Source of the DNA: Xiphias gladius
Taxonomy: Eukaryota > Chordata > Actinopteri > Istiophoriformes > Xiphiidae
Length of the DNA stretch: 64,000 bases
Assembly (NCBI RefSeq): GCF_016859285.1
Contig: NC_053400.1
Coordinates: 29,474,001 to 29,538,000, forward strand
Reading direction: 5' to 3'
Shown here: piece after piece, positions 3,534-62,353 of the stretch
Position numbering within the stretch: the first letter of the stretch is position 1
Layout: each line of letters begins with the position of its first letter
Notes under the pieces: generated by a model
Told to the model about the DNA's origin: nothing
The model's database searches: none
What the model saw: the letters and a program-made list of their open reading frames with translations, nothing else
Made by a program: the position numbers and the translations under genes

Positions 3534-23858
<20,325 letters not shown>

Positions 23859-32210: not shown

Positions 32211-35200
32211 ATGGCGGACCTCAGGAAGATCTGTCCTGAGGCTTTGCCCTGTCGTGTCAGCTGTTCACGAAAAACATCATTCCAGGGGAAGCTTTTCATC
32301 CTTCTTTGCATACTGATAGTGGACACCGGAGGAGCTACGACTCACTGGGTTGTCACGGAGGATGGAAAAATTCAACAACAGGTATGTCAGTTAGCTAGCT
32401 AATTGCCCTGCTAACGCCTGCGTTAGGTGGCTAGCTTGTAACAGCTAACTATTTTTGTTAGCATTGACGGTACCGTTTTGTTTTGTGGGTTTTTATTTTA
32501 GCAGTTTAATCCGAACTCAGCAAGACTCATTGGTCGGGTTAGGCAACGTTACATACTACGAGAAAGTAGCATTAAAAGTCGTTTTGCTTGGCTGAGTCAG
32601 TTAGCTCAAACCAGCTACCTTTAAACTGACGTTATCGTTAGGTGTTTGAGGTCAACATGACCATAATATTCTAGGCCCATGTCAACGTCTGCGATGGAAA
32701 TCGCTTATAAAGATGCCAGATTTTACGTTAATGTTGGTTGGTGCCAACTGCCAGAAAGGTCCCACCTAAATTTAGAGAGAAATAAGCTCAGAGTTTATAA
32801 GTGTTTTACATCTGCACTTAAGTTGGATGGACCATTTCTTACATGTCTAAACAGTACTTGAATCTTCTCATATCATTCGATTAATCCGCTGGTAGAATAT
32901 TTTTCGCAGTCACTGAGACTGACATGAATAAGCGTACTGTATGTCAGACCTTACGGCACTTTTGTTTTTTTGTTGTTGTTTTTTTTTAAGGTTGACTCAC
33001 CTTTGAATCTGAAGCATCCACATGATGTTGTGATCTTCATGCGGCAAGAGACTCGTGTTAACTACCTCAAGAAGCTGGAGGTGTGTGGGTTTCATTTTAT
33101 CTCTCATGTGCAAGGATGTTGTCAAAGTTATTTTTCGCTGTTACGTTTCATTCTGGTCATAGAACTTGTGTGGTACCTATTCTGTCAACTGTCATCTTCT
33201 CTGCATTCATGTCGTTACTGATTGATTGTCCTTGTTGTTGTTGTTGTTGTTGAACAGAAGCAGCTAGTGGCACAGAAAATTCACATCGAGGAGAATGAGG
33301 ACAGAGACACAGGGCTGGAGCAAAGACACTACAAAGAGGATGCAGACTGCATCATGGCTAAGGTCCCCCTGGGGGACCTGGACCTGTACGATGGCACTTA
33401 TATCTCATTGGAAGGCAAAGACATCAGGTAAGTTCTCCTTAATAAAACGTATCATTGCCAACATTCATATTGTTATCTCTACAGTGTTTTTTTTAAAAAG
33501 TGGATAGGGAACCATTTAAATAATGCATAGCCCAATCATGGAGGTATTGTGTGTCTAGTGTGTGTTTATGATTATGATGAACTTGTCATCCTAAAGTTTT
33601 TTGTTTATTTTTCTTCCTGCCTCTCCATCCTGTAGTCCAGAAGACTATGTGGATTCCCAGTCAGCTCTGCCCCCAGATCTGGAAAAGCCTGACTGTGCAA
33701 AAGTGTTCGAACTACCTTATAGTATCCATGCTTTCCAGCATCTCAGGGTAAGTGGAGGTCAAACTTGTCAACACTTTTTCTTCAAAATTGAGCAAGATGG
33801 AAATGAATCATCTATTTAAGTTGCTTTTTTATTTATTTATTTATTTATTTTTTTTGTGTAATAATCTGTATGCTAACAGCAGTCTTGTCTCGATCAGTTC
33901 TGGCACAGGGTTACTAAAGCCTTAGCTAGTCACTGGAGCAAGTTAAGCATGGACCAGAGTTCAAGGACACAAAAGATGATGTATAAGATGGCCATTTTCT
34001 GGCATAGACTTAGCAACTAAACGCATACCAAAGGTTATTAAGTATCTCAGTCAGGGAAGCCCAGCCAACCTTATCGAACAAAATGCAGCAGTTAGTGTTG
34101 TAATAGTAAATAAAGTCTAAAAGGCTGATAGTGGTGGCAGCTGCATATCGGTAAATTACATCCCTCCTTGTGCCAGATGTCAAGAAATTTATATTCTGCG
34201 ACCCCTTTAGAATAAAAAATGCGTTTGTGAAGATATGCACCTCACCGTAATCTACAACATGATTTTATCTTAAGGTTGCATTCAAATCCAACAACAGTTT
34301 TATAAGTGAGGACCTTGGGTAAAGAGTAAAGGGCAGTGTTGTTTTTGTGGGCAAGTACCAATTAATAAAGTTGATATTTGGCTACAGTCAGAGTGGAAAA
34401 CCCCGATAACTCCAACACATCCATTTATCGTTTTCACTGACGTCATCTGGTTATTCGACTGCGTGGTCACCAGCACATCGTATCATATTTATGTGTGTAT
34501 AGTTGCAGAGACATGTCAAGTTTGTGCTTACGAAATTAGTATGCTGTTTATGTAGTTGGGAAAAACTTCAGAATCTTAGTTAGCCTTGCTGCCAGGTGAG
34601 GTCATTTGTGCACTGCATATTATGTGCACTGCATATTATGTGCACTACAGAGATGTAGCGTTTGTGTTTGATTGATCACACGCAAAAATTCCAAGCAATT
34701 GATTCTTCCCATCTTTCCGTTCCAGGGTGTGCAGGAGAGGGCAAACTTGACCTCCCCACTTCTTTCTAAGGAGGATCCCATTTTTAGTTCACTGTCTCAT
34801 AAGCTGGGTCGTAGTGTTGATGAGGTGGGCCACCGCATCCATCAAGGTTTACTGAGGGTAAGGTCGTCCTGTACCACTTTGCCTCACTAACCTACTTCCC
34901 TTTTGTTGCTATTGCACAAAAGAATAGAGGCCTAACAGTTAGCAGTTCGTCCTTAGAAGAAGTTTATAAAAAAAAGTATATTTGTGCATGTCTTTATGAT
35001 TGTGTTTTCCAGAATTCGTCGTCCTGGGTACTGTACAATATGGCGTCATTTTATTGGCGTATGAAGAATGAGCCTCAGAGGGCGGTGGACTGTGTGGTGC
35101 GTGCTCTGCATTTCTCCCCAAGGTACTGTCAGGCTGGTCCGAAACCAACTGCACTAGTATACTGTACTGCATTATATGAGACTGCTCACAGGTGTCCACA

Positions 35201-38200
35201 TTCTCATGCTGTGTGTGTGTGTTGTACTTGTAGGCAGCACAAGGATGTGGCCCTGGTCAACATGGCCAACATCCTGCACCGTGCACATTTCTCAGCAGAT
35301 GCTGCCATTCTCGCCCACGCTGCTTTGGACCTTACCTCGGATCTCTTCACCAGCCACTACACCTTAGGAAACATTTATGCTGTAAGTCGAAGAGAAACCA
35401 TTCCACTGCAGTAGAGGGTTGTGTATTTAAACCACAGACTTACCAACTGGTTAATCTAATAGTTAACACCATAGTATCACAACTTTTGTCTCCTGGATTT
35501 GTCAGGGCACTCCAAAAATCCACGTTCATAAGCTTGAAACTCTTTATCAGTAAGGTTTGAATGTGTTACAGTAAAAGCTTACTAAACAGAATAGTTTAGA
35601 CTCTTGTGGTCTACCATGAAAACCATTTGAAAGTAAAATTATCCAGTGAACTGAATAATTTTTGTATGTAATGGTAGCGCAAATGTAGAAATGGTTTCTG
35701 TTTCCCTTTTTTTTTTCTTTCTGCTGCCCACCTGTCCTTACCGTTTTTAGGTGTTGCTAAGAAATAAATAGCTAATAGAGACTTAACCAATTAAATAACA
35801 GTAAGCTGAGTTTTCATCCCTTTTCTTTTTTTTTTTTTTCCTACTATTGAGAGAGTAGCTCACAGGAGAGTGTTGTGTACCTAATGTGGTGGCAGATTTA
35901 TTGATAACGATTTTTGCTATCTCACTATCTGTAGCTGAGGTTCGGGGTTCCTGAAAAACAAACGAGATAGAATTTAGCTGTCAGTAATTTCTTTTCCCAC
36001 TGGGAAGTATATAGTATATACTATTTACTGAATATAAACGTACAGTGTATTGCCAGCCAAGACCCCAAAATAACATTGTTATATTTGAAAAGGACTTAAT
36101 TAAATCACCAGCATTTTACCAAACTTGTATCTATATAGTTTAATGGTTATTTTTGAGGTCCCCAGAGCTTTATACCAGTGTGTAGTACTCTGACATTTTT
36201 GGTCTGTTGTTTTATTTTTGTCCTAGTATGATTCCTACATGAAACAAATCAGTGTTTGACCTCTGCCATTTCTGTGGTCTTTACATCTCCTTTTCTATCG
36301 CTGTCTGACCAGATGCTTGGGGAATACAATCACTCGGTGCTGTGTTACGAGCAGGCACTGCAGGCCCAGCCAGGGTTTGAGCAGGCTCTGAGGAGGAAGC
36401 ATGCTGTGCTCTGTCAGCAGAAGCTGGAGCAGCGTCTGGAAGCCCAGCACAGGTAGGCAAACACACACACACACACACACACACAGACACAATGACACAC
36501 AGATAACTGAGACACACAGACACACATATAACTGAGAGACACACAGATAACTGAGACTCACAGACACACAGATAACTGAGAGACACACACACACACACAC
36601 ACAGATAACTGAGAGACACACACACACACACACACACACAGATAACTGAGAGACACACACACAGACACACAGATAACTGAGAGACACAAACGATAAAATA
36701 TCATTATACCAGTATACCGTTTGATCCTTGGTTAAGGCATTTGAGTAGGCATTCTAATAATTGTTTCTCTTCTTTTCTCTTTCTTTTCAATGTTCACGGT
36801 TTAAAAATATTATATTTATGGTCATGACCTATTCTTTACAAATGGGCTTGTAAGCACGAAAACAGGTTGTAGTACCTGAGGCTGTCTACCATAATTCTGT
36901 TTGAACAATGATTGGTTGGTCAAGGATTTCAACCTACAGTGGCTTGCAAGGAAAATGTAATGTATCATTCAGTATGTGTTGGGGATTTTTAATGATTACA
37001 GCAAAATCAAAATAAAGTCACCCTGTAAAGTAAAAGAATAGTACCCAGAGCTGGCAGAGAGTCAGTGTTATGTTCATGAATGTAGTGGATCTTTTTGCAG
37101 ATAACCTGCTATGTATTTCTCCCAACTGTCCTGTTTTCCCCGTCCTCATTTTTCTATATTTGTAGATCCCTGCAGCGGACGCTGAATGAGCTGAAGGAGT
37201 ACCAGAAGCAGCATGACCACTACCTTCGCCAGCAGGAGGCACTGGACAAACACAAGCTGCTGCAGGAAGAGCAGATCCTGCGCAACATTATCCATGAGAC
37301 CCAGATGGCCAAGGAAGCCCAACTTGGTAGGATGCCATGCACAGCAACTAGACCACGGCATGAATGAGAACACTTAGAACAATCCTGAGGTGTGCAAGTA
37401 GTGTTATCTCGCAATTCAGTTGACCTGAGTATTGTGTGTCATGTGTGCTCCAGGGAACCATCAGATGTGTCGGCTGGGTCAGCAGCAGCGCAGCCTCTAC
37501 TGCCCCTTTGACCTGCCTGTGCGCTATCACCGGGGCGATATTTTTGAACATGTCCACTATGTCCAAGTGAGTTTTCAAGATATTACAATGTAGGATGTTT
37601 ATAAGAAGGAGGTGATTATTAGCCCTGGGTTTCCCCTGCAGGGAGAATTTAAACCACAATGCACTGTTCTTTCAACACAAAAAGAACATGTTGTGTGGTA
37701 CAGCTTTCAGTGGATATTTATCAATGGAAGCGAGTAAAAAGAAAATAATTTATTTTTCACACATTACTGGGCAAAAGCTTTTGCTAGTTTCTGTCTCTCA
37801 GTTCTTCCTGTCTTTCTCTTTTTTCATAGTTTGCAGAGGAGGTGTCAGTGGCATCCAGTGTGGCGCTTGTGTCAGAGCGTAACTCAAACCAGACAGCGGC
37901 CAGCCCCCAGCTCCATCCCTCTGTGTCTGGAGACCAAGACCCTGCTGCTGCCCTCTGGGGCAGCCATCAGGATTACACACAGGCAAGAGAACTGCATGCA
38001 AATTCATTCTTTGCAGGTCAACTCCGTGACTTCAAAGTACACCATCAAGTTGACACCAAAAAAAAAAAGAGACATCTCTGTAATGCTAATGAACATTCAA
38101 CAACATTCAGAGACCACATTGGACCTATCAAACAACGTAATACAACTGTAGGGATGCTGGATCCCATTTGATTTTGCATATGAATGTAAGGAGAGTCCAA

Positions 38201-41200
38201 AAAAAATTTTTTTTTAAGAAAAATTTGCTTCTAAAACATTAGATTAGTTGAAATTTTGATTAAACAATCACAAACTCCTGGAGAGACATTTCGTGTGTAT
38301 TACCTCTATACCTCGGTATTGTTTAGGAGATCAAGAGTTGCTGACAGTACGTTTTTTGCTTTAGGACATTCAGAGGATGTTGTGGCCTCAGAGGACTGAC
38401 TGTGCCCAAGAGTACCCAAGTGTTCCCCCTGCTCACCTGCTCCCAACCTACTACCTTCCACCTGAAACACAGGCCCTCAGGTCAGTACACATTACTGAAT
38501 GGGGGTATTTCGTGGATTCCTAGTAGCAGGAAAGCTACATTCCACTTAAGTTTGAATCCTCGCAGTGATCTTCAAAACTACACCGCACGTCAAAGCAAAG
38601 GATAACAATTTAAAGCTATGTGAGAAAAGATTTACCACATAAAAATTGCTTGTGAGTGAAATAATTCTAATTGTGTATAATCAGCCCAGTGGCAACTCTA
38701 CTGTATGGGAAGAGCAGTCCTCCTCAGACAGCAGCTCTGCCAGACTGTGGTCCCATCCCCCAACCATATCCAGCCCTCCTGCCAGCCTCACTAGACTGGC
38801 CGCTGGAAGAAAAGGAGCTGCCAGATCCCTTTGCCTCCCAGGTATCTGTCTGCCTGTTTGTTTACTGTATGTCTGTTTGTGTGTGTCAGTTTTAATAGGA
38901 AAATGATTGAGATAGATAGATACTATGTTGCAGTATGTTTACAGAATTATTTTGCCTTTACTTTGTTTGTCGGAGTGTGTGAGTGTTTTGTATGATATGT
39001 GGAACTGTGCAGAAGAATATCCACTCGTGAATATTACTTTGTGTGATTACAGATACTGCAGTTGCGCAGTGGAGGATGGACACTGGAGCAGATTGGCTCC
39101 AGAGTAGCTCAAGCTATGAAACAAGTAAGAGAGCTCCTGACTCCTCTGTTCTCGTAGCACAATAATGTATCTCACTACCTAGTATAAAAAGCTTGAAGGG
39201 CTGAATTTGTAGAGAGTGGCACATAAAAGGTTTTCTGTCTTTAATAATTGAATGGGAATTTACGCTTTATTGAGGCCATGCTCACACTCTAACTTAAGTT
39301 GTTGAGTTGATAATAACTGTCCATCACATCTCAGATTTGGGAATTTGATCATGAACCACTCCAGCCACTCTAAAGTGCTCAAAATTCAACCCATCTGAAG
39401 TCTCTCTCAGAGCTAACAGAAGTTTGTTTGTATATATAGGCCACTATACCCAGCTGGCAGGTCCACAACGAGGCAGCTCTATTTTGGCGGGCCAAAGGCA
39501 ATGGCAGCCGTGCCCTACAGTGCCTGCGCCAAGTGTTGAGCTCGGCTCCGCCCTCCCACCGCCACTTGCCCCTCACCAACGCCGCTAACCTGCTGCTACA
39601 CCATGGTCTGACCACCCACGCACACACACTGCTGGAGCAAGCATTGACACTTAATGCATCAGAGGTAAAGGCACTTTGGTAAATAACCGTTTACCATTTT
39701 TTTTACCATCTTGGAGTTGCACACATACGCTGTATTACGTGTACTCTACACCTTTGGCCCAATATAGGTACATGTTTGTTGACACAAATAAGCAGCTCCT
39801 TCAGACAGCCAGTCATATGTTTGTTGCTTTTTGGAGTATACAACACTCAATACATCAATACACCAGTGAATCAGTATCGGTAAAACCCCAAGATCATAGT
39901 AGTTATCACACTCTTCATCTTCTCTTGCTTAATATGTTTGTATAAACAGATTCTTATTCCTCAGGTTAGCAAAAAACACTTTTCCAATTCTACCATTATA
40001 CCACACACTATTATGTCACATTAACTGTGGATCTCTGTGGTAAGAGGTAAAGATGTTTGAATGTTAATAAAAATAGAATTGTCGGATCATTGCTTTTTTT
40101 TAAACATTTATTTATTTATTTTTATTTCACTCTACAAGCTTATGCATGTAGTAGTTATGCAAGCCTATATATGACATGTGTCTGGGACAAAATGTACTTT
40201 GTCCAAACTCCTCACCAACCATACAAAAGATACCCTTTCCTTAATACCAGTTGAACAATACGTCTCATCACGCAAACGATGCTGACTAAGTGCATCTTGT
40301 AATAGCCATACACTGATCTCTTTGTCAAATGGAGTCGTCCAGCGGTATGCTGTGCCATGTCAAAAAGCACTCATCACGTCATGTTGATTCCAAGAACACC
40401 AATTTAGTGCTCTCCAGTACACTGCAGATTGTTCACATTTTAAACCCAAAAGAGTAACACGGGAAGATTTAAAGCATGAGTGTGTGGCTGGAAAATGTGC
40501 TCAATCTGCAAGATGGTATCTGGTCAGTATGGAATAAAATCGATTGGGGACATTTCCAAAGTGTCAGTAAATCAAGCCTTGAAAAAAAAACAGGGACTTA
40601 AAAGTAAAAGGGGTGTACCCAATAATATGGCCATAAGTGTATACAATTCATGTTGATTATATACCAATCCAGGAAACACAGGTAGAGAACTATGTAAGAA
40701 CTGGAGATGGTAAGCTCTGGTATGGAATTGCAATGAGTCATTAATATATGACTCAACCAATCGCCATAAACTGCAAAAGTGTTGTTGCAGTTTCAGAAAA
40801 AAATGCATATACCTTGTTTTGTCCCTATATCACTGTAGGATGTATAGCGATGTCTGCTAAAGCTGAGTGTCAGTTTTCACTCTTTACCCATCAGCTTTTT
40901 TTTTTTTTTTCTCCCTCAGCCCCACACTCTGCTCAGCCTGGTGAGTTTGCAGTTGGCCCAGGGCAATGTGACAGGTGCTCTGGCCTTGTTCCGCCACATT
41001 CTGGTGATGGCCCTTTCCTCCTCCTCTTCCTTCTCATCCTTTGCTGCCTGTGAACAGTGTCGCACTAGCCTGCCTCTGCTGCGTTGTCTGCAGTTCTACC
41101 CGTTCCTTTACAATCTTTCACATCGACAGCCCTGCTCAGGTGAGTAACACAAACACATACAGGTGTATTTTACAGTATCTCTGAAGTATAAAGGACTTGA

Positions 41201-44200
41201 TCCCTAGGATTTACTACTTTTAAAGGCATATTCCCTGATTTTTGTTCAACTGAACTCTGAACAGCAGTACAGATTCAGAACATCAGCAATGATCTGAAGG
41301 CACTGGGGAGTTACAGCAAGATCAAGCAAAATTTTTTTAAAGAGGGCTTTGCACGATAAAAACAATATGTATTGTGGGTTTTTTAAAGTCTAACAATTGC
41401 TAAATTGTACGGTGTTAAAGATGTGGGGGAGCCTGAAGGATTTGTAGGTTTCTTAAACCTAAGCACTATCGTTGCTTAATCTTTCTATATGTAACAAAAA
41501 TGCAGAGATAAGAGTGGTGATGAGCATCATTCCCTGAAGTTTCATCGAAACCTGAGCTGTGTGGACAGATGGACAGATCTAGGAAATGAATCCCTTTCCG
41601 ATATTTGCCCTATATTACGAACAGTTTACATATAAAGCGCACTATATTTGGAGTATTGACATTTGGCTTTGATTTCAGCGGTGGTCATAACACATTAATA
41701 TGCAATATAGCCACTTAAGCAGAACCTGACAATTTGTTTCTAAATTTTTTTATTTGTTTTCATTATTTCTAAAAACATTACTTAATTTTTTTTATTTTTT
41801 ATTAACATTCAGTAAAAGAATGAATGCACTACCCTGCAACCTCATGGTGTTTATTAGAAGCTGGTCAGTCTATCCCTCTGATTTTAAAAAAAGTAGTTTT
41901 GCAAAGTAATTTCATCACAGCTTACAATTAGAATGGCACTCAGAGGAGCGCATACTTTGCCAAGGAGAAAAATGCCCTATCTAGTCAGTTACGGAAAGTG
42001 ATTAAAAAAAAATCCCTGGATCCACCCTTTTAATCGGATCCGGGCCAAAATTTAATGGGTTCTTTTCTGGCCCATGCCCCATCCCCTTCACCAAGTTTGG
42101 TGCAAATCCGTTCTTCACTTTTTGCGAAATCCGGCTGACAAATAAGCAAAACAACAAACGCACAAACCAACAAACAGACCCGGGTGAAAACCCAACCTCC
42201 TTGGTGGAGGTAAATATTGTTTTCTGTAATTCCCAACTCTACCAGTGGGCTATACTGAAACTGAAAATTAGCCATGGACTCAAAATGCACTCACATGCTG
42301 TGGGCCTTACACTCAAAACCCCCATGTTGTCCATTGAAGCTGCAAGAGTGGCTGTGAGAAACAAGTAGTATGTTGTGATTCTGATTTGAGCAGCGACTGC
42401 AACTGCTTCTTTATTCATATCAGTGGGAGTGAAAAGAAAAGTGCTTTGAAGTGGAGAAATTTTGCCACTCAATAATTTAAGCTGCAGAAAATAGCTGATG
42501 CCAAATTTAGAAAGGTCTATATTTTATTCTCCAAAGCTAAATATTGCTGAGGTCACACAAGCACTTTTAAAACATTCACCCACCTTAAGTTGGGGCAAAA
42601 GTTTAAATAAACGCACAAAAAAGAATTAAAAACCTTTCTCATATTAAATTTTCTCATACATTTTATGGTGGCTGCAGTTTCTCCCACATGTTTTGATCCT
42701 TTTAGCAGTATTGCTACAGTCAAACAAATTTTTTTCAAGGTTGTGGAAAAACAAGCTATGATACATAGATTCATAATCTTGGTCAGTTGCAGATTAACTA
42801 AGAAAATGAGTGCCGTCATAACAAATTTTGACTATGTGAAGCACTTCACCTTGGCCCAGCTGTCTGTCAAGCTTCAGTTCAGTACAGTTTTTGAGATAGT
42901 ACGGATTTTATACATTCCTCATTAAAAAATTAATAACTCATTAATTATAAGAGATAAACAAGCTGTTCACAAGCTAATATGGCATAGTCATGCTTGGATA
43001 TTTAAAGTGGAACCATGTTTCTAGTCATCTCTATCTGGGGGTAGCAATGGTTCGTATTCAGCGATTTTTAGATCCCTGCAAAAAAAAAAAAAAAAAACCA
43101 CATGGGCAATGTTTGGGGCCGTACACGCATGGTATGTACCAAGTTTAGGGAAGGGTGGATGAAGGATGTAAGATAGTGAGTCAAAAATATGTCTAGCAAA
43201 AAATTTTAAATGGTGGAACATTTTTTTTTATGATGCAAATGGGCGTGGCCTATATCCGATGGCATCACCCACTGACCCCATAGACACCAGACATTTTCTT
43301 CTACACCTCATAGTTGCTGAGATACTAGCCAAAACATTTTTCAATATTGGTTAGCCCATTTCTCACCACATATTGGCAGTATTGCCACAATTTTTGGGTA
43401 TGTGAAGCACTGAAATATCTGTAAGTATGTCAACAAGTTTCAGGCTTGTAGCCTTTTATAGTTTTTGTGACATTCAGCATCTTTTATCATGTTTTGCTTA
43501 TTCCCCACAGAAAACCATTAGAAAAAATGTACTAAAAAAAATTGATACAAAGTCAACTGTGACAGATGTCATCACCAACTGTAATAGCGTCAATCTCTTC
43601 AACACGGTTAACATTTAATCTTTGGAACTCTGTGTCTAGCTGCAGGCGCTAAGAACTAGTAGCACGCCAAAAAGAAAGGACTGATTTGTTTGGTAAAGTA
43701 AATATCCAAACTGCCTTAGTAACTTGTCTGTAATAACTTGATCACAAAATTCCACACACAAGAGAGGGATAATTTTTCAAGTCTCTGAATATTTATTTTA
43801 TTCCAAATTTACTATTTCACTAATGTACATTACTATGATATCTATGAATATACAGAACAGTGTTTGGGAAGACGTTTAACATTTGTGTTTCTTTCATGCT
43901 ATACGTCTTTTGTACCAGTCTTTGTTAATTAATTTGCCAATTGATTACGAATACAGTTGTTGTCAGTGCCACCTAGTAAATGTCTGCTCCAGGTCTACTA
44001 TCGTGGTTAGATTTGGAGTAATAATTTTCCCTTGACTTGTGTTCATCCAGAGGGTGCTGCCTGCATGGCTGAGGAGGACCTTGGTATACAGCTGGAGGAA
44101 TGGGAGGGCAGTGAAGAGAAGCAGGAAGCACCAACCATTTCTGCAATGGAGGACTCCTTGCTCTTCGAGAGTAAGAATATGATGATGATATGAAACGGAC

Positions 44201-47200
44201 TTTCAGTTCAGTGCAGTTCCACGTGGCTCAAATTTGCACTACAAAATGTCACTGAGAATTAGACCACATCAGTGTCATATGTAACTTGACCTAATTGTCT
44301 GCCCTGAAAAAATATTTATGAGACTCCAAAAAGGGTTTCTCTCTCGCTCAGTTTGGTAAGTCCTCCTGTAGCTCAACACTACTGTAATTAAATTCTTTCA
44401 TTTGTTTTCAGAGCTAATCTTGGACAGTAATGGGTCAGGTGAGGCAGCTGGACAGCACCAGGCTTCCCCCTCTGCCTCAGGGACAGCTAAAATGGCCACC
44501 CCATTTGGAGGTGGAGGAGTGGAAGGGGAGGAGGAGTGGCAGCTGAAGGAGGACCTGATGGGGGCTTTTGAGGGAGCACTGGATGTTGGAGGCAAACGAG
44601 GGGACCTGCGAGGTATCCGGGTGCTAAAGAATGACCGTGTCATGGGTGCCCGTGCAGGTGGTGGGCCCTGCTTTGGAAACTGTGAGGACGATGAGGGAGC
44701 AGAGTGGGTAAGTGTGAAAACTCACCCTTTTGACAACAAAGTTGAGTTTGATTAGCAGTCACCAGTCTCCTGTAGTTATGAGTGGAACTGATGTGACTGA
44801 AGTGTGTAGAGTTGATCTGAAGGTTCGAGTGCCTTTTTGTTGTTGTTCATCAGATCACCTTCCAGGTAAAACGGGTCAGGAAGGCTAAGGTGGATGGGAC
44901 AGAAAGTGTTGCTAACTCTGATGACAGCCAGAACGGGGAGTCACTGCCTGGGGGACACTCTGTCTTGGAGATCAGCGGGCCAACTATCCCATCGCCTGGC
45001 CCTTCAGGTACCGCAAACACCTACATTTCAGGGTTGGGTGGTGGTGGGTGGTGCAGCATGTGACCGATGTGCATGCAGAGACTCATGCAGTTTAGAGGGA
45101 GAGTGTAACCCAGGTTTTTTTCTGGAGCTAAAATTTACAGATGTTTCCTAAACGCGTCACAAGCAGGCTATCGGTAGACTCTAGCCAGGCGGCTGCACAC
45201 AGAGAGGCCTGTAGTCCCCACTATGTCACTGCAGCGCACGCAACTCACAGGTGTGTTGCCAAAAATTAATTACTTTGAAAAGGGTAAAATACAGCGTTCG
45301 GTTGAAACTGAACGATTTTATCTACCTGGGCGGGTATAATCTACCTGGACACGCTGCCCAATTAGAGCCTTTGTATGAGAAACGCTGCTATCTCTAAGAA
45401 TGCTCCTTCGGTTGTTTTCAACAACAATGAAAGAATGATTAAAATTAAGTACAACTACAGTTATATTTGACAGTGTGGACGGGCGCGGCGTCTCCCTCCG
45501 TGTTTCGGGAGAACTTGTGAGCGAGTGGTTGGGCATTCGCACAGATGCAGAGGGAAAGTGGGGGCGGGGTTGTGCGGAGACTGGCACGGCTCTATGGAAG
45601 AAACGGGCTATGTAACGCAACATCCAACTATATCAATTCAAACAGTATTGTCTCATCCTATATCTCATTTGAAAATATATACCGATTATACCTTTTAAAA
45701 AGTTGATAAACCATCCAGCGCTATTATATTTTACACAGAATAAGCACCAAGGTACTGGACTTAAACCAACTGAGAGAGATGTCTTTGTGGTTTTTGTGTT
45801 TCCGGGCAGGTCGCTGGAGGGACTACACAAGTCTTGGCTGGCCAGGGCCAGAGGAATGCCAGCGAACACGAAGGGTTGACCTCACCACTGTAGCTAGCAC
45901 CTGGTTGGCTGTCTCTGCCAAGAACATTGAGTAAGACTCCCACTGTCCTGATCATGGTCTCGGTTTCATCTCATGTTATCTTACAACAAGTCAGTTCCAG
46001 AAGAGGATTTATGTACCTCATTATTATATAACTGCGAATTTAGTAGGTGCTGAAATATTGACCATGTACACACAAATTTGTTTGAAAAGTAATATCCACA
46101 AAGCTTTTAAGATACCTTAGATATGTGTGGAGTGGTTTTTAAGAAATACCTGTTGAGTGTTTTGAATTCGAAAACAGGAGTAGGAAATAAAAGGTAATAT
46201 ACAGGCGTCAATTTGCGGGTTCTAACCTCAATCGCCAAAAAAATTAAAGCCGCAAGCAGCAACGAGCGGGTTTCAGGCCTGACAAAGACGAGCAAAATCA
46301 CTTCAGCTAGTTTAATTCTGTTTAAAAGTGTCCATGTAGTAAATATATTGAGGAACTCAGTGATAGAAAAAAATATACTTTAGTGCTGTTTAGTAATATT
46401 TTCCTCCAAAAAGAATTAGGAAAAGAAAATACTTTGACTGGAGTTAATGACGGGCAATGAAGAGAGAAAAAGGGTATTGTAACGGAAGGTACTATTATGA
46501 TGCCTAGCTGTTTTTTGTTCTGTTTCAGCTACAATTGATCCAGGTTGCATGGTATGCGTATATGTTTTTTGATTGATTGACAGCCATGTTTTTTTGACCG
46601 AACGTGTCCATTCATAATAGAATTGTGTATCTCAGTCCCAAAAGACTATCTACTGAATTTGTTGTTGATACAGTCAAAATCCAAAAAGTAGCTGTCACTT
46701 TACAGTCTTTTCAAATTGTGCAATTTAGCAAAAATTAAAAATCCAGCATGTTGGACTTTAATGGTTCAAGGGGCTTTTTTTGTAGAGCACAGCGAGCTGG
46801 ACTGGTATGTCAAATTTCAAGTTGGTCGGACTTACAGTGTGTTTTTGTGTTTTTAGGCCTTAATTACAGCGCCGCCATCTGGCAGATTGGGGTCTTGTTT
46901 CTTGGGAAGCGCTTGCCCCTCATTTCCAGTTGTTTTATTCATGTTTCTAGCTCGCTCCAACTCAGCAGTCTGAGCCACAGGAGCAGACAACAAATAATCA
47001 TAAACCAGCACAAATGCAATTTAAAAAACTAATAATAATAAAAATTATTACAACAAAAAACCCCATTGTTGACTCATTGACATTCTTGCATCATAGCACA
47101 TCAGAAACTAAAATTCAGTAAATACAGTTTTTAGTCTTTTATGTTTTAATTTTACGTTTTCCCTTCACTGTCTGTCTTTAGCATCACAGAACACATAGAC

Positions 47201-49746
47201 TTTGCCACTCCACTCCAGGAGCCAGCTGCTGAACCTTTATGTAACGCCAACCTAGCTGCCAGTATGCACACCCTCGACCACCTGGCAGGGGTAGCCAATC
47301 GTGCCGCCATCCACTACACTGGAGAGAGTCAACTGCGTGAGGTAGGCTGAGGCAGAAGCCATAGATTACAAGAATTAACATGCATCTTCTTCCCTTCTAA
47401 AGAGGTTGTCATCTCTATCACAGCAGTAATAAACAGAATGGTAGATAAAGTTATAAAAACTAATGAGAAAATACTGCACACGTCTAACATTCGCATTCAA
47501 ACGAGTTTGAATTCCACAGATATACTTCTATAAACCATGTGTATATATATATATGAATATGCAAACTTAATTTGAAGAATTCAGATTTCAGGAGGAAATG
47601 ACAACTTGTGCTGGGTGCCACAAAAAAAACCAAAGAGCAGGTCCAGTAGCTAATGTTAGAATTTGCAAAGCCAAGGTTTAACAGCCAAGACAGTCATAGG
47701 TTGATTTAAAGAATATGCAACAGGGGTAGGTAATGCATGCCCAGAGACAGTCCTAACGTATAGAAACTGTCAAATGGAAAATCATTGTTACACTCTATAG
47801 AAAAAACGACCTCATTGACAGTCACACTATTAAATAATCAGCGTAGCAACACTTCTTAAGCCTCAATTATACTCCCTTGTGGACGTGCACACAGACACCT
47901 GTGGACACCACGGACGGTGGTTTTCATTATAACACTTCCTGGTCTGTTTGGAGTCACCTCGGTGCGGACCATGTGCAGTCGGTGCCCTTGTAGCGTAGTG
48001 GGTCACAAAAAATTGGAGGGTACCCTGACGTCTGCACAGAGCCTAGCGTACTCCCCCTGATGATGAAATTTATGTCACTCGGACCCTAGTGGACCCTCGC
48101 GTACTCGCAGATGCAGAAAGTGTAACACTAGCCTTAGTTAATAGTCTCACACGTGTCTTTTCATGTCCTCACCCACAGGTCCTGCAGAACCTCGGCAAGG
48201 ATAAGTTCTCCCCTCAGTCCTTTGAGCAGGTGGGGACAAGAATCGCTAAAGTACTGGAGAAGGTAAGGGCTCTCTGGTGGTCCCAGTTTCGGTAGAAACA
48301 TTTGCATTAAAATAACTTGTGTTTTCACAACTATCACCAGAATGTGCAACAGCACAGCAATTTCATATACCCACAATCTTGGCTGCGTATTTTTTTTGGG
48401 GGGGGGGGGCGGTCAAGATCAAATTTTCTTGTGTTCCTTCCTACAATGCTGCATACCGCTCCACAGTTAAGCATTACTAAACCAATAATAGTTATGTGCA
48501 ATTTGAAATGGTGACATAACACATTGCATTCTGCACTATATAAAATACACTCAGTTGCGTAACATTTGCTCATTTGCAAACTTTCAATTTGTCTTTGTCT
48601 TGAGCTGTATGAATTAACTCTTCATCACTCTTCTTTTTCTCCAAATGTAGGATATAGGTATATCAGGAAACCAAACAATCAAAGTTATTAAGGCAGATTT
48701 TCCCACTGAGGAAAGAGGCGAAATGCCACTAAGTAAGGACGGGAGTACACATTCAAACTTTTAAACGTGTCTTCAACGGTGTTTGAGAGACGCCGAAGGC
48801 TGCTCAGTGTCATTAGCCATCCCAACCCTGATCATGCACTTACGACAAGCATGTTTTTGTGCTATTTTGTGGTAAATTGAAATAATGATGAAAAATTGCA
48901 GGAGTGCAAGAAAGAAAGAAATAGTTATTTGGAGAAGGTGCCATTACTGTGAATAATTTATTAGCAGTAACACCCAGCTCTTATAGCCTTGAACTACAAC
49001 ACCAATAGCACTCAACCAATTCAATTTCAATTGTACATGTTTTTCCATTGTCTAATCCCTGAAACTGCAGAATCAGACATCATGGATATTATCCAGCATG
49101 GCTGCACTGTACTGGAGGGTGAAAGGTCAAGGCAAGAGAGCCATCGACTGCCTACGACAGGCTCTCAACTACGCCCCCCATCATATGAAGGCAAGTTAGA
49201 CATCAGCTGTTCCCAACACTTAACCTACCTAGTACGTTTACTAAATAAAGGATTGTTTTAAACATTCTTTTTCCTCCTGAATTGTTAACCAGGATGTGCC
49301 CCTTATCAGCCTGGCCAACATCTTCCAGAACGCTCGGCTATGGGACGATGCCCTCACAGTCGCCCGTATGGCAGTGGAAATTGCCCCGCACTTTGTTGTG
49401 AACCACTTTACCCTCGCCAACGTCTACATAGCAATGGTAATGCCTACCTCTCTGTTACTATTTGGTCGTTATTTGTTTCCTTGTAGTGACATGACCTACT
49501 GCTCAGTTCCTCAAGATTGCCCAGTGCTATAGCAGAACGTCAAAGCATTTATCGAGCAGTAGCGGAGGTCGTGCGTCCTAACGGTGACGTGGTTGTTCTG
49601 TTTCGTGACGACAGGAGGAGTTTGAGAAAGCCATGCGCTGGTACGAGTCTACGTTGAAGCTGCAGCCGGAGTTCGCCCCTGCCAAAGATCGACTGAGAAC
49701 CATTCAGTGTTACCTGCTCACCAAGAGGGAACGCCGTCAGCCCTAG
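32211..49746 (+). CDS. ttc17: tetratricopeptide repeat protein 17 (25 coding exons)
   Basis: TPR protein; the mammalian orthologue is linked to actin organisation and primary cilium formation. Coding exons: 32211-32381, 32991-33080, 33258-33427, 33636-33747, 34726-34857, 35013-35122, 35234-35381, 36313-36452, 37166-37326, 37454-37566, 37830-37982, 38365-38480, 38685-38841, 39053-39124, 39440-39664, 40920-41139, 44051-44170, 44412-44707, 44854-45007, 45810-45930, 47182-47341, 48179-48262, 49071-49190, 49293-49436, 49615-49746. All phases join, giving 3621 nt and about 1206 aa (human 1141). The N-terminus has a hydrophobic stretch (L-F-I-L-L-C-I-L-I-V, about 28-37) before the conserved T-T-H-W-V-V-T-E-D-G-K. 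TPR clusters lie near residues 226-370, 616-740 and 1076-1190. A charged coiled-coil-like segment (about 360-405, K-E-Y-Q-K-Q-H-D-H-Y) follows the first cluster. Residues 450-615 are poorly conserved against mammals. Introns 11 and 23 use GC donors. Confidence 0.96.
36461..36690. repeat. composite minisatellite in ttc17 intron 8
   Basis: About seven copies of an ATAACTGAGA(G)AC core are separated by (CA)n runs of varying length, beginning nine bases after the donor of exon 8. It looks like a CA microsatellite that trapped and amplified an 11-14-base core. Confidence 0.9.
37983..38364 (+). other. ttc17: ttc17 intron 11, GC-AG type
   Basis: Exon 11 ends Q-D-Y-T-Q at CACAG|GCAAGA and exon 12 starts after TTTAG with D-I-Q-R-M-L-W-P, matching mammalian D-K-Q-H-I-L-W-P. 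Only the GC donor keeps the frame. The nearest GT (after TTTGCAG at 38018) joins in the wrong phase and runs into a TGA. Confidence 0.75.
41985..42215 (+). repeat. dispersed repeat in ttc17 intron 16
   Basis: The ordered blocks CCCTGGATCCACCC, AATCGGATCCGGGCC, AAAATTTAATGGGTTC, CCAAGTTTGGTGCAAATCCG and AACCTCCTTGGTGGAGGTAA are those of a repeat seen very often in fish. No coding capacity. Class left open. Confidence 0.65.
42800..43420 (+). repeat. probable dispersed-repeat fragment
   Basis: Phrases such as GTATGTACCAAGTTTAGG, GCAAATGGGCGTGGCC and GTTGCTGAGATACTAGCC recall an abundant fish repeat family. This copy is diverged and interrupted by A-runs (43081-43098). Boundaries are approximate. 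Confidence 0.45.
46235..46900 (+). repeat. probable dispersed repeat in ttc17 intron 20
   Basis: It begins AATTAAAGCCGCAAGCAGC and AACGAGCGGG and ends near GCGCCGCCATCTGGCAG, both seen often in fish interspersed elements. The middle is AT-rich and unrecognised. Family unknown to me. Confidence 0.5.
49191..49292 (+). other. ttc17: ttc17 intron 23, GC-AG type
   Basis: Exon 23 ends A-P-H-H-M-K at ATGAAG|GCAAGT, a perfect GC-donor consensus, and exon 24 follows GTTAACCAG with D-V-P-L-I-S-L-A-N. Frame and homology leave no alternative GT donor. The intron is only 102 bases. Confidence 0.85.
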
Positions 49747-56999: not shown

Positions 57000-58660
57000 G
57001 AGATTCTCCACCTGACGTCAATGCCCAGTGACTGACGCATCGCCCGGGAGAAGGAAGTCTGTTCTCCGGTTCCACCGCGTTTTATTGCTATTTTATTTTT
57101 AGCCTCAGAAAGACGCCGCCTGAAGATGGCACAACGTGCCAATTAGCGACAGAATTATAGGCTCGTGTGTGCATTTTTTTTTTTTAATAATTTGAAAGGG
57201 TGGGGGTGCCTGTGCGCGTGTGTTTGTGCGTGCGCGCGCGCGTGTGTGTAGTGGGGGTGGGGTCATCGTGAATTAATAAAAAGCGAAAGTTCCGCGCGCT
57301 TTCAGCGACTCCGTTCAAACGATCTGCGCGCGTGCAGATCTCCACGGTCATCTCGTTATTAGGGAGACGCCGCCGTGCGCGCGCGTTTTTACCTCGCGAC
57401 GGGAGGGCGGAGCGACGGGAGCTCGCGCCGGTTCTCAAAACGCCGCACGCTCGAAATTCCTCCAAGGAACCTCTGCGAGCTTTTTTTTTTTTTTTTTTTC
57501 TTCTTCTTTTTTTTTTTTTTTTTCCATCACGCGCGGGCTAAAAATAGAAACGGGGTTGGATCGTGATCCAGAAATAGATAGGGGGCATCACTGCTATAAA
57601 AGGCTCGCCATTCAAGAGTACAGTGTGTGCACAGTTTGAAGAGGAGAAAAGCGAGGGCACGCTCTTAATGGAGGAACGAGCTTCGCTTTATCTCTCTTTT
57701 CCTCTCTCGTCCCTTTCTTTCCTTGTGTGGGGTCCGTTTGGTGTTTTCTTTTAAAAGAGGAGGCTCCTCTGCTACAACGGTGAGTTGTGTCAACCTTTCT
57801 CTAGCTGCTCCTGTTCCTTTGCTCTTCTTTCTTTTTATCAAAGCTTTGTTTTATATATATATATATATATAATCTTTTTTTTAATCCCACTGCAAAACAT
57901 TTCCAAAACGAAGGGAAGTTGCAAACGTGCTAGTTTAAATAAGGCGGGATTTGCGCGGAAAGAAACGCGATGTCACGAGTGTTTTGTGTGGATTTCTGCT
58001 TTTCTTTCTTTCTTTTCTTTTCTTTTTTTCGCAGTAGCGTTGGCAGCGTGCTTTGAAGAGCTATCAAACCGGGCTGCACGGGAATCACCCTCAGTTGTGA
58101 CTTAAAAAACAAAAACGGGGTGGACGTTGTTCTTCGGTTTCACTGTAGTTCCTATCGCCACTGTAGCTCCTGACATTAGACCCGCGAAAGCCCGGGGTTC
58201 TCGTGGACCCGCGTCGGAGCGGAGGCTGGTTTCCGAGCGGGGAGCTGTCCTCTTGTTGTGGTGCTGAAGCGGCGCGAGCCCGGGTCCGCCGCGCCGCTCC
58301 ACGCAGCGTCCTCGAGCCACCACCGTGGGCATTTCGGATAAGTTGGATGCAGCAGATTTCGCCTCGAGGGCTTCGGGCTTTTGGGGGTGTCTTCGCCTCG
58401 CGCTCTTTGACCGCGCGGAGCTCTCAACCTTCGCCTCCGGTTTCGGTGATTTTTTTTATTTTATTTTTATTTATTCATTTTTTTTTTACTCCTGCAGAAG
58501 CCGGAGGGCGAGCAGCTCCAGCAGCGTTTCCCGCCTCGGACACGCCGCTGCCTCAACAATTTCGACGCTTGGTTGCAGATTTTTTATTTTTTTTTTTCTC
58601 TCTCCTCATCCTTTTGTGCACTTTGAGTCTCGAGTCGTGACTGCTAAACGTGAGTAAGGC
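57000..58660 (+). promoter_or_regulatory. CpG-rich promoter region with TATA box at 57595-57603
   Basis: The segment is rich in CpG (many CGCG/GCGCGC, notably 57220-57480 and 58190-58440). A clean TATAAAAGG lies at 57595-57603 and predicts initiation near 57626. It sits 1.8 kb upstream of the first mir-129-2 hairpin on the same strand. Human MIR129-2 is likewise associated with a CpG island, so this is the most likely pri-miRNA promoter. That link is inference. Confidence 0.6.
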
Positions 58661-58895
58661 GCGTGCTGCGTCAGTGGCGTCTGGCTCCGGTGCGCTCGAG
58701 ACAGATGGGGGGGAATCGTGACCGGCTGGGAGACGCGTCCGCAAATGAAATGGCCGGACGGCCCAATGAAAACGGAGCGAGGGTGGGGCCCCTGCTCCGG
58801 CAGCTGGAGGTTTGGATCCAAATTAACCCTTTGCCAATAAGGAAAACTTTACAATTAACGAAACTAGAGGCACGAATCGTTTTCAACTACTGTTT

Positions 58896-60253
58896 TTTTT
58901 ATTTTTTATTTTTATTTTTAGTGTAACTGGATCCACAAACAGGAAACCACGAACCGGGTCACGATGCTGTCTCACGTCTTTTCATCTGAGAGGACTCTGT
59001 TGTTGGCCATTGTTTGGTATAAAGTCGCACTAGTGTCCACAGTAAATGGGGGGGGGGCTGTCAGGTGCTTTGGCCTCCTGCTTAGGTGTTCTTTTCCTCC
59101 GCTTCGCTATTGGCAGATGGCGAGTCGTCCTGCCCAATGAAATCGCGGCCACCCCTCTGCTGCGCGTTAAAGTCTGTAACGGCAACGAGGTGCCGCGTCT
59201 CCCCGTCGCCGCTTCTCTTTAATGACCAGGGCTGCGCGTTGCTGCACAGCGACGCCGGTCCGGCAGGGCTTCCGGCTCCGGCGGCTGCGCCTTCGGCGGG
59301 CTTGTGCAGGAACCACCCTCACGCACGGTGTGTTTTTTTTTTGTTATCTGAAAACACTCGGAGGACGGGCCCCCCGCGAGTCGTGGACTTGACCGGAGTG
59401 GATGTGGATGAGGATTTTTTGGGAGCCGCGGCAGTCGTCCGTCACGAATCTTTTTGCGGTCTGGGCTTGCTGTGCATACATGACTCTGGGAAGCCCTTAC
59501 CCCAAAAAGCATTTGTGGAGGACACGGACGTCGTTCGTGTTGTCCGGTGCCGAGAAAAAGTCGCCGGTGCCGCCGCCAAGACGGGGCCGAGGGGTCTGTT
59601 GTAAACACCGAGGGCCCGGACTCACAAGGTGTCCAAGTGTGACCCGTGCCTTCAACAAAACACGCGCGCACGCACGCACGCACACACACACACACGCACA
59701 CACGGATGAAGGACCGCTCAGTCAGTAGTGAAAACATGATGTAACACGTTTAAAGGCACTAAAATATTAATCACTTGCTTCTCCAGCTGTGGCAGATCAT
59801 GGAGGGGGGCACAGGTCAGAGAGGGAAACCCAGAAAACACGGAGCGTTGCCTGGCCACCTCTGAACACACGGCCCCCCGATCTGCGACCTCACGGCAGCG
59901 TGCACTTCTTCAGCAGCCCCCCCCCCCGGGTTGCCGGGTGTTGCGCCTGCGACAAGGCCCAGTTATGCACAGTGCTTGTTTCTGCTGTGCTATAAATAAA
60001 CACGTGTGAAGGAGGAACAGATGTGGGGGATTTTTCATCTTTCAACACTGTAAAAACTAGTTTTTTGTTTTTTTTTACTGATGAGTTATTCTGCATCAGA
60101 ATCACATCACCGGCGTAACAGCTCCTCCTCACGTGTGATGGCTTCCCATCGGATCGGCTGCTTTTCGTGGGAGCCTCAAAATGAGGCCCCCTTTTTGTCG
60201 CCTGAGCGAGCGGGAGAAAAGGGCGGACGGGTCCTTTTAGTGGAAGCCAGAAG
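58896..60253. repeat. tandem duplication, copy 1 (contains mir-129-2)
   Basis: Direct repeat of the next segment in head-to-tail order. It begins within a T-rich tract ending ...ATTTTTAGTGTAACTGG (GTG at 58921) and ends at GGAAGCCAGAAG (60253). I saw roughly ten base substitutions against copy 2 outside simple repeats, plus length differences in T, C and CA runs. Confidence 0.95.
59437..59523 (+). ncRNA. mir129-2: microRNA mir-129-2, copy 1
   Basis: Vertebrate microRNA precursor. The 5p arm (59450-59470) begins CTTTTTGCGG and ends GGGCTTGC, the known miR-129-5p. The 3p arm (59491-59512) begins AAGCCCTTACCCC, the known miR-129-2-3p. The arms pair across a loop of 20 bases, and the lower stem closes with GTCC...GGAC. 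The loop is shorter than and different from the human one. Position downstream of ttc17 on the same strand matches human MIR129-2. The family is strongly expressed in brain and endocrine tissue in mammals. Confidence 0.95.
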
Positions 60254-61649
60254 TTTTTTATTTTTTTTTTATTTTTAGTGTAACTGGATCCACAAACAGG
60301 AAACCACGCACCGGGTCACGATGCTGTCTCACGTCTTTTCATCTGAGAGGACTCTGTTGTTGGCCATTGTTTGGTATAAAGTCGCACTAGTGTCCACAGT
60401 AAATGGGGGGGGGGCTGTCAGGTGCTTTGGCCTCCTGCTTAGGTGTTCTTTTCCTCCGCTTCGCTATTGGCAGATGGCGAGTCGTCCTGCCCAATGAAAT
60501 CGCGGCCACCCCTCTGCTGCGCGTTAAAGTCTGTAACGGCAACGAGGTGCCGCGTCTCCCCGTCGCCGCTTCTCTTTAATGACCAGGGCTGCGCGTTGCT
60601 GCACAGCGACGCCGGTCCGGCAGGGCTTCCGGCTCCGGCGGCTGCGCCTTCGGCGGGCTTGTGCAGGAACCACCCTCACGCACGGTGTGTTTTTTTTTTG
60701 TTTTTTTTTTATCTGAAAACACTCGGAGGACGAAGACCCCCCCCCGCGAGGAGTCGTGGACTTGACCGGAGTGGATGTGGATGTGGATTTTTTGGGAGCC
60801 GCGGCAGTCGTCCGTCACGAATCTTTTTGCGGTCTGGGCTTGCTGTGCATACATGACTCTGGGAAGCCCTTACCCCAAAAAGCATTTGTGGAGGACACGG
60901 ACGTCGTTCGTGTTGTCCGGTGCCGAGAAAAAGTCGCCGGTGCCGCCGCCAAGACAGGGCCGAGGGGTCTGTTGTAAACACCGAGGGCCCGGACTCACAA
61001 GGTGTCCAAGTGTGACCCGTGCCTTCAACAAAACACGCGCGCACACGCACGCACGCACGCACACAGACACAAACACACACACACGCACACACAGATGAAG
61101 GACCGCTCAGTCAGTAGTGAAAACATGATGTAACACGTTTAAAGGCACTAAAATATTAATCACTTGCTTCTCCAGCTGTGGCACATCATGGAGGGGGGGG
61201 GGCACAGGTCAGAGAGGGAAATCCAGAAAACACGGAGCGTTGCCTGGCCACCTCTGAACACACGTCCCCCCGATCTGCGACCTCACACGGCAGCGTGCAC
61301 TTCTTCAGCAGCCCCCCCCCCCGGGTTGCCGGGTGTTGCGCCTGCGACAAGGCCCAGTTATGCACAGTGCTTGTTTCTGCTGTGCTATAAATAAACACGT
61401 GTGAAGGAGGAACAGATGTGGGGGATTTTTCATCTTTCAACACTGTAAAAACTAGTTTTTTTTTTTTTTTTTACTGATGAGTTATTCTGCATCAGAATCA
61501 CATCACCGGCGTAACAGCTCCTCCTCACGTGTGATGGCTTCCCATCGGATCGGCTGCTTTTCGTGGGAGCCTCAAAGTGAGGCCCCCTTTTTGTCGCCTG
61601 AGCGAGCGGGAGAAAAGGGCGGACGGGTCCTTTTAGTGGAAGCCAGAAG
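60254..61649. repeat. tandem duplication, copy 2 (contains mir-129-2)
   Basis: Second copy of the 58896-60253 unit. The offset grows from 1357 at the left edge to 1373 at the hairpin and 1396 at the right edge because of short insertions (for example an extra T-run near 60702 and extra C/G bases near 60737 and 61196). Beyond 61649 the sequence (TTTTGGGGTTTTTTTTCC) has no counterpart after copy 1. Confidence 0.95.
60810..60896 (+). ncRNA. mir129-2: microRNA mir-129-2, copy 2
   Basis: Identical base for base to the first precursor over all 87 positions. The 5p arm is at 60823-60843 and the 3p arm at 60864-60885. Both lie on the same strand, 1373 bases apart, so both could be processed from one transcript. 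Whether this is a true second gene or an assembly duplicate cannot be decided from the sequence. Confidence 0.92.
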
Positions 61650-62353
61650 TTTTGGGGTTTTTTTTCCATCTGGCAACGTGTGGTGTTGATTCCTGTGTCT
61701 CCGCTGACTGAACATTGGGGAACGTAGACTGGATATTGGACGGACAGATGTCAGGGAGAGCAAGATGGGGGGTTGTTTCCTAGTAATGTACAAAGCAGTG
61801 CCCCGACAATGTTACAGATTCAAGAAAAACTCTGAATTACTTTAATCTACTACCTGAAATCAGGATTACGGGGGTCTTGGGTCTTCTGCATAGAAGTAGA
61901 ATAGATGAACTAGAACTCCTTTAATCACTGGAGGAACCTGAAGTGGACTTAACGTCAGTTCTGAATTTTCTTCAGTCAAGAAAGTGCAAGAACCTCTATA
62001 CTGCATATTGACAGTTTACGATATACAGATGTTCTTATTGTTTTGAGTACAGTCTGCTGCATTTCTTCAATTTGTATTTGGAGCAGTTTCCCACCCCACT
62101 CACCTCGTATCACTGTGTACTAATTTCCAATCCGTTTTTTTTCCCCCCTTTTCTGGGGCTCAGCAAGTAAAAACAGTTCTCCGTACTATGAAAATATGTT
62201 TGCGTTTGCTTTTCTAATGTTATTTTTACTCTCTTTTTTTTTTTTTTTTATTGCCTTTCGAACTTACAGGTTCTCCACATCACAGACACACTCCGCTGGG
62301 AAACCGCAGCGGTGACCAAGCCCACAGCGAGGTCAGCAGGTGGAACCCACAGA

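Follow-up and report, generated by a model that had tools for sequence, protein, structure and literature searches.

Does this fish carry two copies of the microRNA gene mir-129-2 side by side on one chromosome, or does the assembly present a single locus twice? The question is raised by a stretch of 64,000 bases (C1:29474001-29538000, hereafter the window) in an assembly of 690.8 Mb and 1,298 contigs, in which contig C1 is 35.6 Mb long. The most probable answer is that a segment of 1.36-1.40 kb containing mir-129-2 has recently been duplicated in place and that the duplication is real in the animal. Judging from the sequence, this reading has a probability of about 0.6.

Two mir-129-2 hairpins beside TTC17

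The genes of the window are fish genes. The features that define the locus are:

32211..49746, + strand: TTC17, exon span approximate, from open stretches
about 26-30 kb, - strand: TRAF6, for which the nearest of the listed named proteins is that of Lates japonicus
59438..59524, + strand: mir-129-2 hairpin of copy A, with the 5p arm at 59450-59470 and the 3p arm at 59491-59512 (RF00486, fold, arms)
60811..60897, + strand: mir-129-2 hairpin of copy B, with the 5p arm at 60823-60843 and the 3p arm at 60864-60885 (RF00486, fold, arms)

The original prediction of two identical 87-nt mir-129-2 precursors 1,373 nt apart, at a locus adjoining TTC17, was borne out on both points. The Rfam model of the mir-129 family (RF00486) matches the + strand at 59444-59515 and 60817-60888 with cmscan. 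Each match has a score of 81.9 bits (E 5.4e-16) and covers model positions 1-75 of 75, its full length, and both are above the cut-off of 48.6 bits. The two hairpins are identical over all 87 nt and lie within a larger identical block of 171 nt (59412-59582 in copy A numbering), with an offset of 1,373 nt from hairpin to hairpin. The sequences CTTTTTGCGGTCTGGGCTTGC and AAGCCCTTACCCCAAAAAGCAT, the two miR-129 arms, are each present once per hairpin and both are exact. The 3p arm of both hairpins ends in GCAT, and the GTAT form of this arm was not found in the 64-kb window; a 3p arm with GCAT rather than GTAT at its end is the form expected of mir-129-2. The fold of each hairpin has an energy of -37.3 kcal/mol (z -5.09), and none of 200 shuffles was equally stable. 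The joined exons of TTC17 match percomorph fish TTC17, with Dicentrarchus labrax as the top match. Hairpin A starts at 59438, on the same strand as the TTC17 reading frame and 9.7 kb downstream of its end at 49746.

Several other observations concern the window. The antisense of the hairpins (- strand, 59445-59515 and 60818-60888) gives a weak RF00486 match of 36.4 bits, which is below the cut-off of 48.6 bits. The TRAF6 protein agrees with that of Lates japonicus in 514 of 574 aligned columns, using a joined query that is without one 24-residue stretch. The + strand at about 6.7-22.4 kb has exon-like open stretches which, judged by eye, resemble a TRPM-type channel, and the open stretches at 18128-19908 on the same strand include what we take by eye to be fragments of a Tc1-type transposase. 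A minisatellite array of the ACACACAG type with several overlapping periods occupies 36461-36688.

The mir-129 family is also present elsewhere in the assembly. A whole-assembly Rfam search gave eight mir-129 matches, five of them above the cut-off, among the 59 of 41,183 candidates that were scored. The five are the C1 pair and one hairpin each at C2:7.70 Mb, C8:25.56 Mb and C8:15.07 Mb, the two C8 loci being 10.5 Mb apart. The remaining three matches are weaker and lie on the opposite strand at C2 and at both C8 sites. The alignment places the C8:25.56 Mb hairpin nearest to the C1 pair, with 91% identity over the hairpin, and shows that the flanks of C2 and C8:15.07 Mb are alike. The 3p arm ends in GCAT in both C1 copies and at both C8 loci, and in GTAT at C2. 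Since GCAT also occurs at the C8 loci, the 3p ending alone is insufficient to single out the mir-129-2 locus. We infer that the teleost genome duplication left two old pairs, to which the tandem event added one further copy. The 22-nt pattern of the 3p arm had no matches in the viral contigs and none in the collection of genome contigs, which is expected because this is a fish gene.

The C1 locus resembles other mir-129-2 loci in its full-length family match, intact arms, GCAT 3p end and TTC17 neighbour. It differs in having two tandem copies, whereas C2 and the two C8 sites have one copy each.

The tandem unit and its edges

The hairpins lie within two head-to-tail units, as had also been predicted, and direct-repeat analysis and self-BLAST confirm the arrangement and the length of 1.36-1.40 kb in the assembled sequence. 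Their limits and the word at which they meet are:

58893..60253, + strand: copy A of the repeated unit, its limits placed to within about 5 bases (direct repeats, self-BLAST, edge letters)
60254..61649, + strand: copy B of the repeated unit, its limits placed to within about 5 bases (same evidence)
60253..60257, + strand: junction word GTTTT, also present at 58892 (left edge) and 61649 (right edge), edges compared by eye

The self-BLAST of the window aligns 58895-60269 with 60254-61665 at 96% over 1,414 columns. With matches of at least 60 bases that pass the low-complexity filter retained, the only other matches in the window are three of 84 to 122 columns at 75-79%. The tandem repeat in the assembled sequence is far beyond chance. 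The start-to-start spacing in the direct-repeat analysis increases along the unit from 1,357 to 1,396, and the drift originates in the runs and the CA/CG array.

Alignment of copy A with copy B gives 11 mismatches in 1,355 columns. Of these, 59368 and 59369 fall in a short stretch of rearranged G/C and 60067 in a run of T; with these three set aside, 8 substitutions remain, at 58952, 59411, 59583, 59704, 59795, 59829, 59872 and 60181 of copy A. The divergence is 8 substitutions in 1,177 unmasked bases, or 0.68% (interval 0.29-1.34%); position 59704 sits in a masked array, and without it the remaining 7 substitutions give 0.59%. Because the copies differ by about 0.6-0.7% outside runs, the event that produced them is probably recent. 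Selection on the hairpin was considered as a reading of the identity of the two precursors and was rejected, since, at the rate of the unit, 87 nt would show no difference with a probability of 0.55.

The copies also differ in length. In all eight length differences inside the unit (60252-61650 vs 58895-60251) copy B is the longer, by 8, 5, 3, 6, 10, 4, 2 and 1 nt. At the left edge, a ninth difference within the T tract goes the other way, with copy A longer by 2. The pattern was noticed post hoc; in a sign test, 8 of 8 corresponds to p = 0.008 and 8 of 9 to p = 0.04.

The right edge reads ...CCAGAAG TTTT GGGG, the left edge ...CAACTACTG TTTTTTTTATTT and the junction ...CCAGAAG TTTTTTATTT. Joins made by end joining or template switching usually show short shared words of this kind. 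The join sits in a T-rich low-complexity tract, so the sharing of GTTTT comes cheaply. Assemblies, too, may break in a tract of this sort. There is no gap at the join, and the window has 0 N in 64,000 bases.

Origin of the second copy

The serious rival to a real duplication is that the assembler placed two alleles of a single locus consecutively, a false haplotypic (heterotype) duplication. It is serious because a divergence of 0.6-0.7% is allele-sized, as are the differences in repeat length, and because the join falls within T-rich sequence. In one study, errors of this type touched 4 to 16% of the sequence in the older assemblies it describes, and some of the pairs had been joined by wrong gap filling, which leaves the gap invisible (PMC9516828). 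Ko and colleagues recognise false duplications there by read depth reduced to half, by gaps that separate the two copies, by discordant linked reads and by k-mers present in one copy; the same source also reports a true allele-specific tandem duplication with haploid depth. The C1 pair resembles the false duplications it describes in its adjacent copies and allele-like divergence, but differs in that no gap intervenes and no leftover haplotig was found among the scored candidates. The search for the unit with its flanks gave no second full-length match outside C1 among the 40 of 1,391 candidates that were scored. The other matches listed are short, namely the C8:25.56 Mb hairpin and, for the rest, matches to the CA/CG arrays of both copies. 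The flanks are not duplicated together with the unit, and the unit edges share a 5-nt word, which also argues against two misplaced alleles. A comparable repeat is furthermore absent from 24 stretches of 10 kb. A direct repeat of at least 200 bp at 85% or more was found in none of 20 random and none of 4 chosen stretches of this length, nor in the 10 kb around each C2 or C8 mir-129 locus. The 20 random stretches amount to a small sample, 200 kb of the 690.8 Mb, and all were taken within the first 18 Mb of contigs C1-C24; by the rule of three, a count of zero still leaves room for about 15 such repeats per Mb. One of the random stretches (L039 1-1893) opens with 1,893 N, representing a scaffold gap or a withheld stretch. 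As a further control, mir-124 has six loci above the cut-off in the assembly and no tandem pair. Taken with the evidence on both sides, two alleles placed in succession is the less probable explanation, though one that deserves to be taken seriously.

The pair could also be an older tandem duplication in which gene conversion has kept the copies alike. Near-identity of neighbouring copies does not in itself date the event, and the identical 171 nt around the hairpin would be consistent with conversion. However, the two copies are closely alike from end to end of the unit, simple sequence beyond the hairpin included, and the three other mir-129 loci are single. An old, homogenized pair is therefore very improbable.

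The gap-free join, the single full-length match to the unit among the scored candidates and the repeat-free random stretches favour a real duplication. In that event, a replication or end-joining error at the short GTTTT match would have copied the unit in direct tandem. Such a duplication may be fixed or still polymorphic, and the C1 pair may be confined to a single species or a single individual. A bolder reading is that a percomorph fish lineage very recently doubled mir-129-2 in place, each unit carrying along its CpG-rich upstream region, with the doubling perhaps still segregating; this is tentative and somewhat short of an even chance.

Local tandem duplication has been described as a frequent source of microRNA genes, giving head-to-tail clusters that are typically carried on one transcript (PMC1388199). 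The clustered tandem duplicates of that account are mostly old and diverged, whereas the C1 pair is nearly identical. Recent tandem gene duplicates are described as common in fishes, and in zebrafish above all (PMC3464592). The mir-129 duplicates presumably left by the teleost genome duplication are likewise extra mir-129 genes of fish, but the copy at C8:25.56 Mb is on another chromosome, whereas the C1 pair is local and recent. Among the matches listed from the open-access literature, none describes mir-129-2 in tandem in a fish, which is weak evidence of absence.

Putative transcription and predicted consequences for dose

The sequence around the hairpins has candidate signals for transcription and splicing:

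59101..59400, + strand: CpG-rich stretch upstream of hairpin A, a possible promoter, with ATTGG at 59109 and CCAAT at 59134
60501..60700, + strand: the same CpG-rich stretch as it lies upstream of hairpin B, a possible promoter, with ATTGG at 60466 and CCAAT at 60491
59995..60000, + strand: candidate AATAAA hexamer after hairpin A (sequence)
61390..61395, + strand: candidate AATAAA hexamer after hairpin B (sequence)
58650..62269, + strand: putative intron around both hairpins, from splice-like sites, with the acceptor before 62270 read by eye

Each unit has a CpG-rich stretch and CCAAT-type boxes, the boxes being about 300 to 345 nt upstream of the hairpin, and an AATAAA about 470 to 495 nt downstream of it. 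That both hairpins lie in one shared intron, as originally suggested, is a guess from these letters. The donor-like site at 58650 comes 73rd among the 3,898 GT sites in the window. On a rough weight table it is outscored by the donor-like AAAGTGAGG at 61577 in copy B, which is the top site of 57.8-63.0 kb. This site was made by one of the 8 substitutions, and copy A has AAAATGAGG instead. Its presence inside copy B would count against a single-intron arrangement. The AATAAA after each hairpin would equally allow two separate short transcripts. Human mir-129-2 is tabulated as intergenic in one published list (PMC3123655).

The source of the microRNA could be one primary transcript or a promoter carried by each unit. 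Drosha and Dicer would process each hairpin to the same miR-129-5p and miR-129-2-3p. Since the mature products are the same in both transcript arrangements, the predicted effect is one of dose and not of new targets, and the outcome would be more of the same microRNA without new target specificity. A real gain of mir-129-2 dosage in the animal is likely on this reading of the sequence. In tilapia the miR-129 family is reported at a high level in ovary (PMC3900680); therefore, brain is not the sole tissue of interest for miR-129.

What stands out is the youth of the duplicate in a family that otherwise has one copy per locus in this genome. Should the pair prove to be an assembly error, it would call for care when microRNA genes are counted in draft fish genomes. 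If the duplication is real, a deeply conserved microRNA has here a young duplicate, and the copies have not yet diverged. The pair would then be a natural copy-number experiment, offering a direct test of whether the dose of a microRNA is tolerated, buffered or selected.
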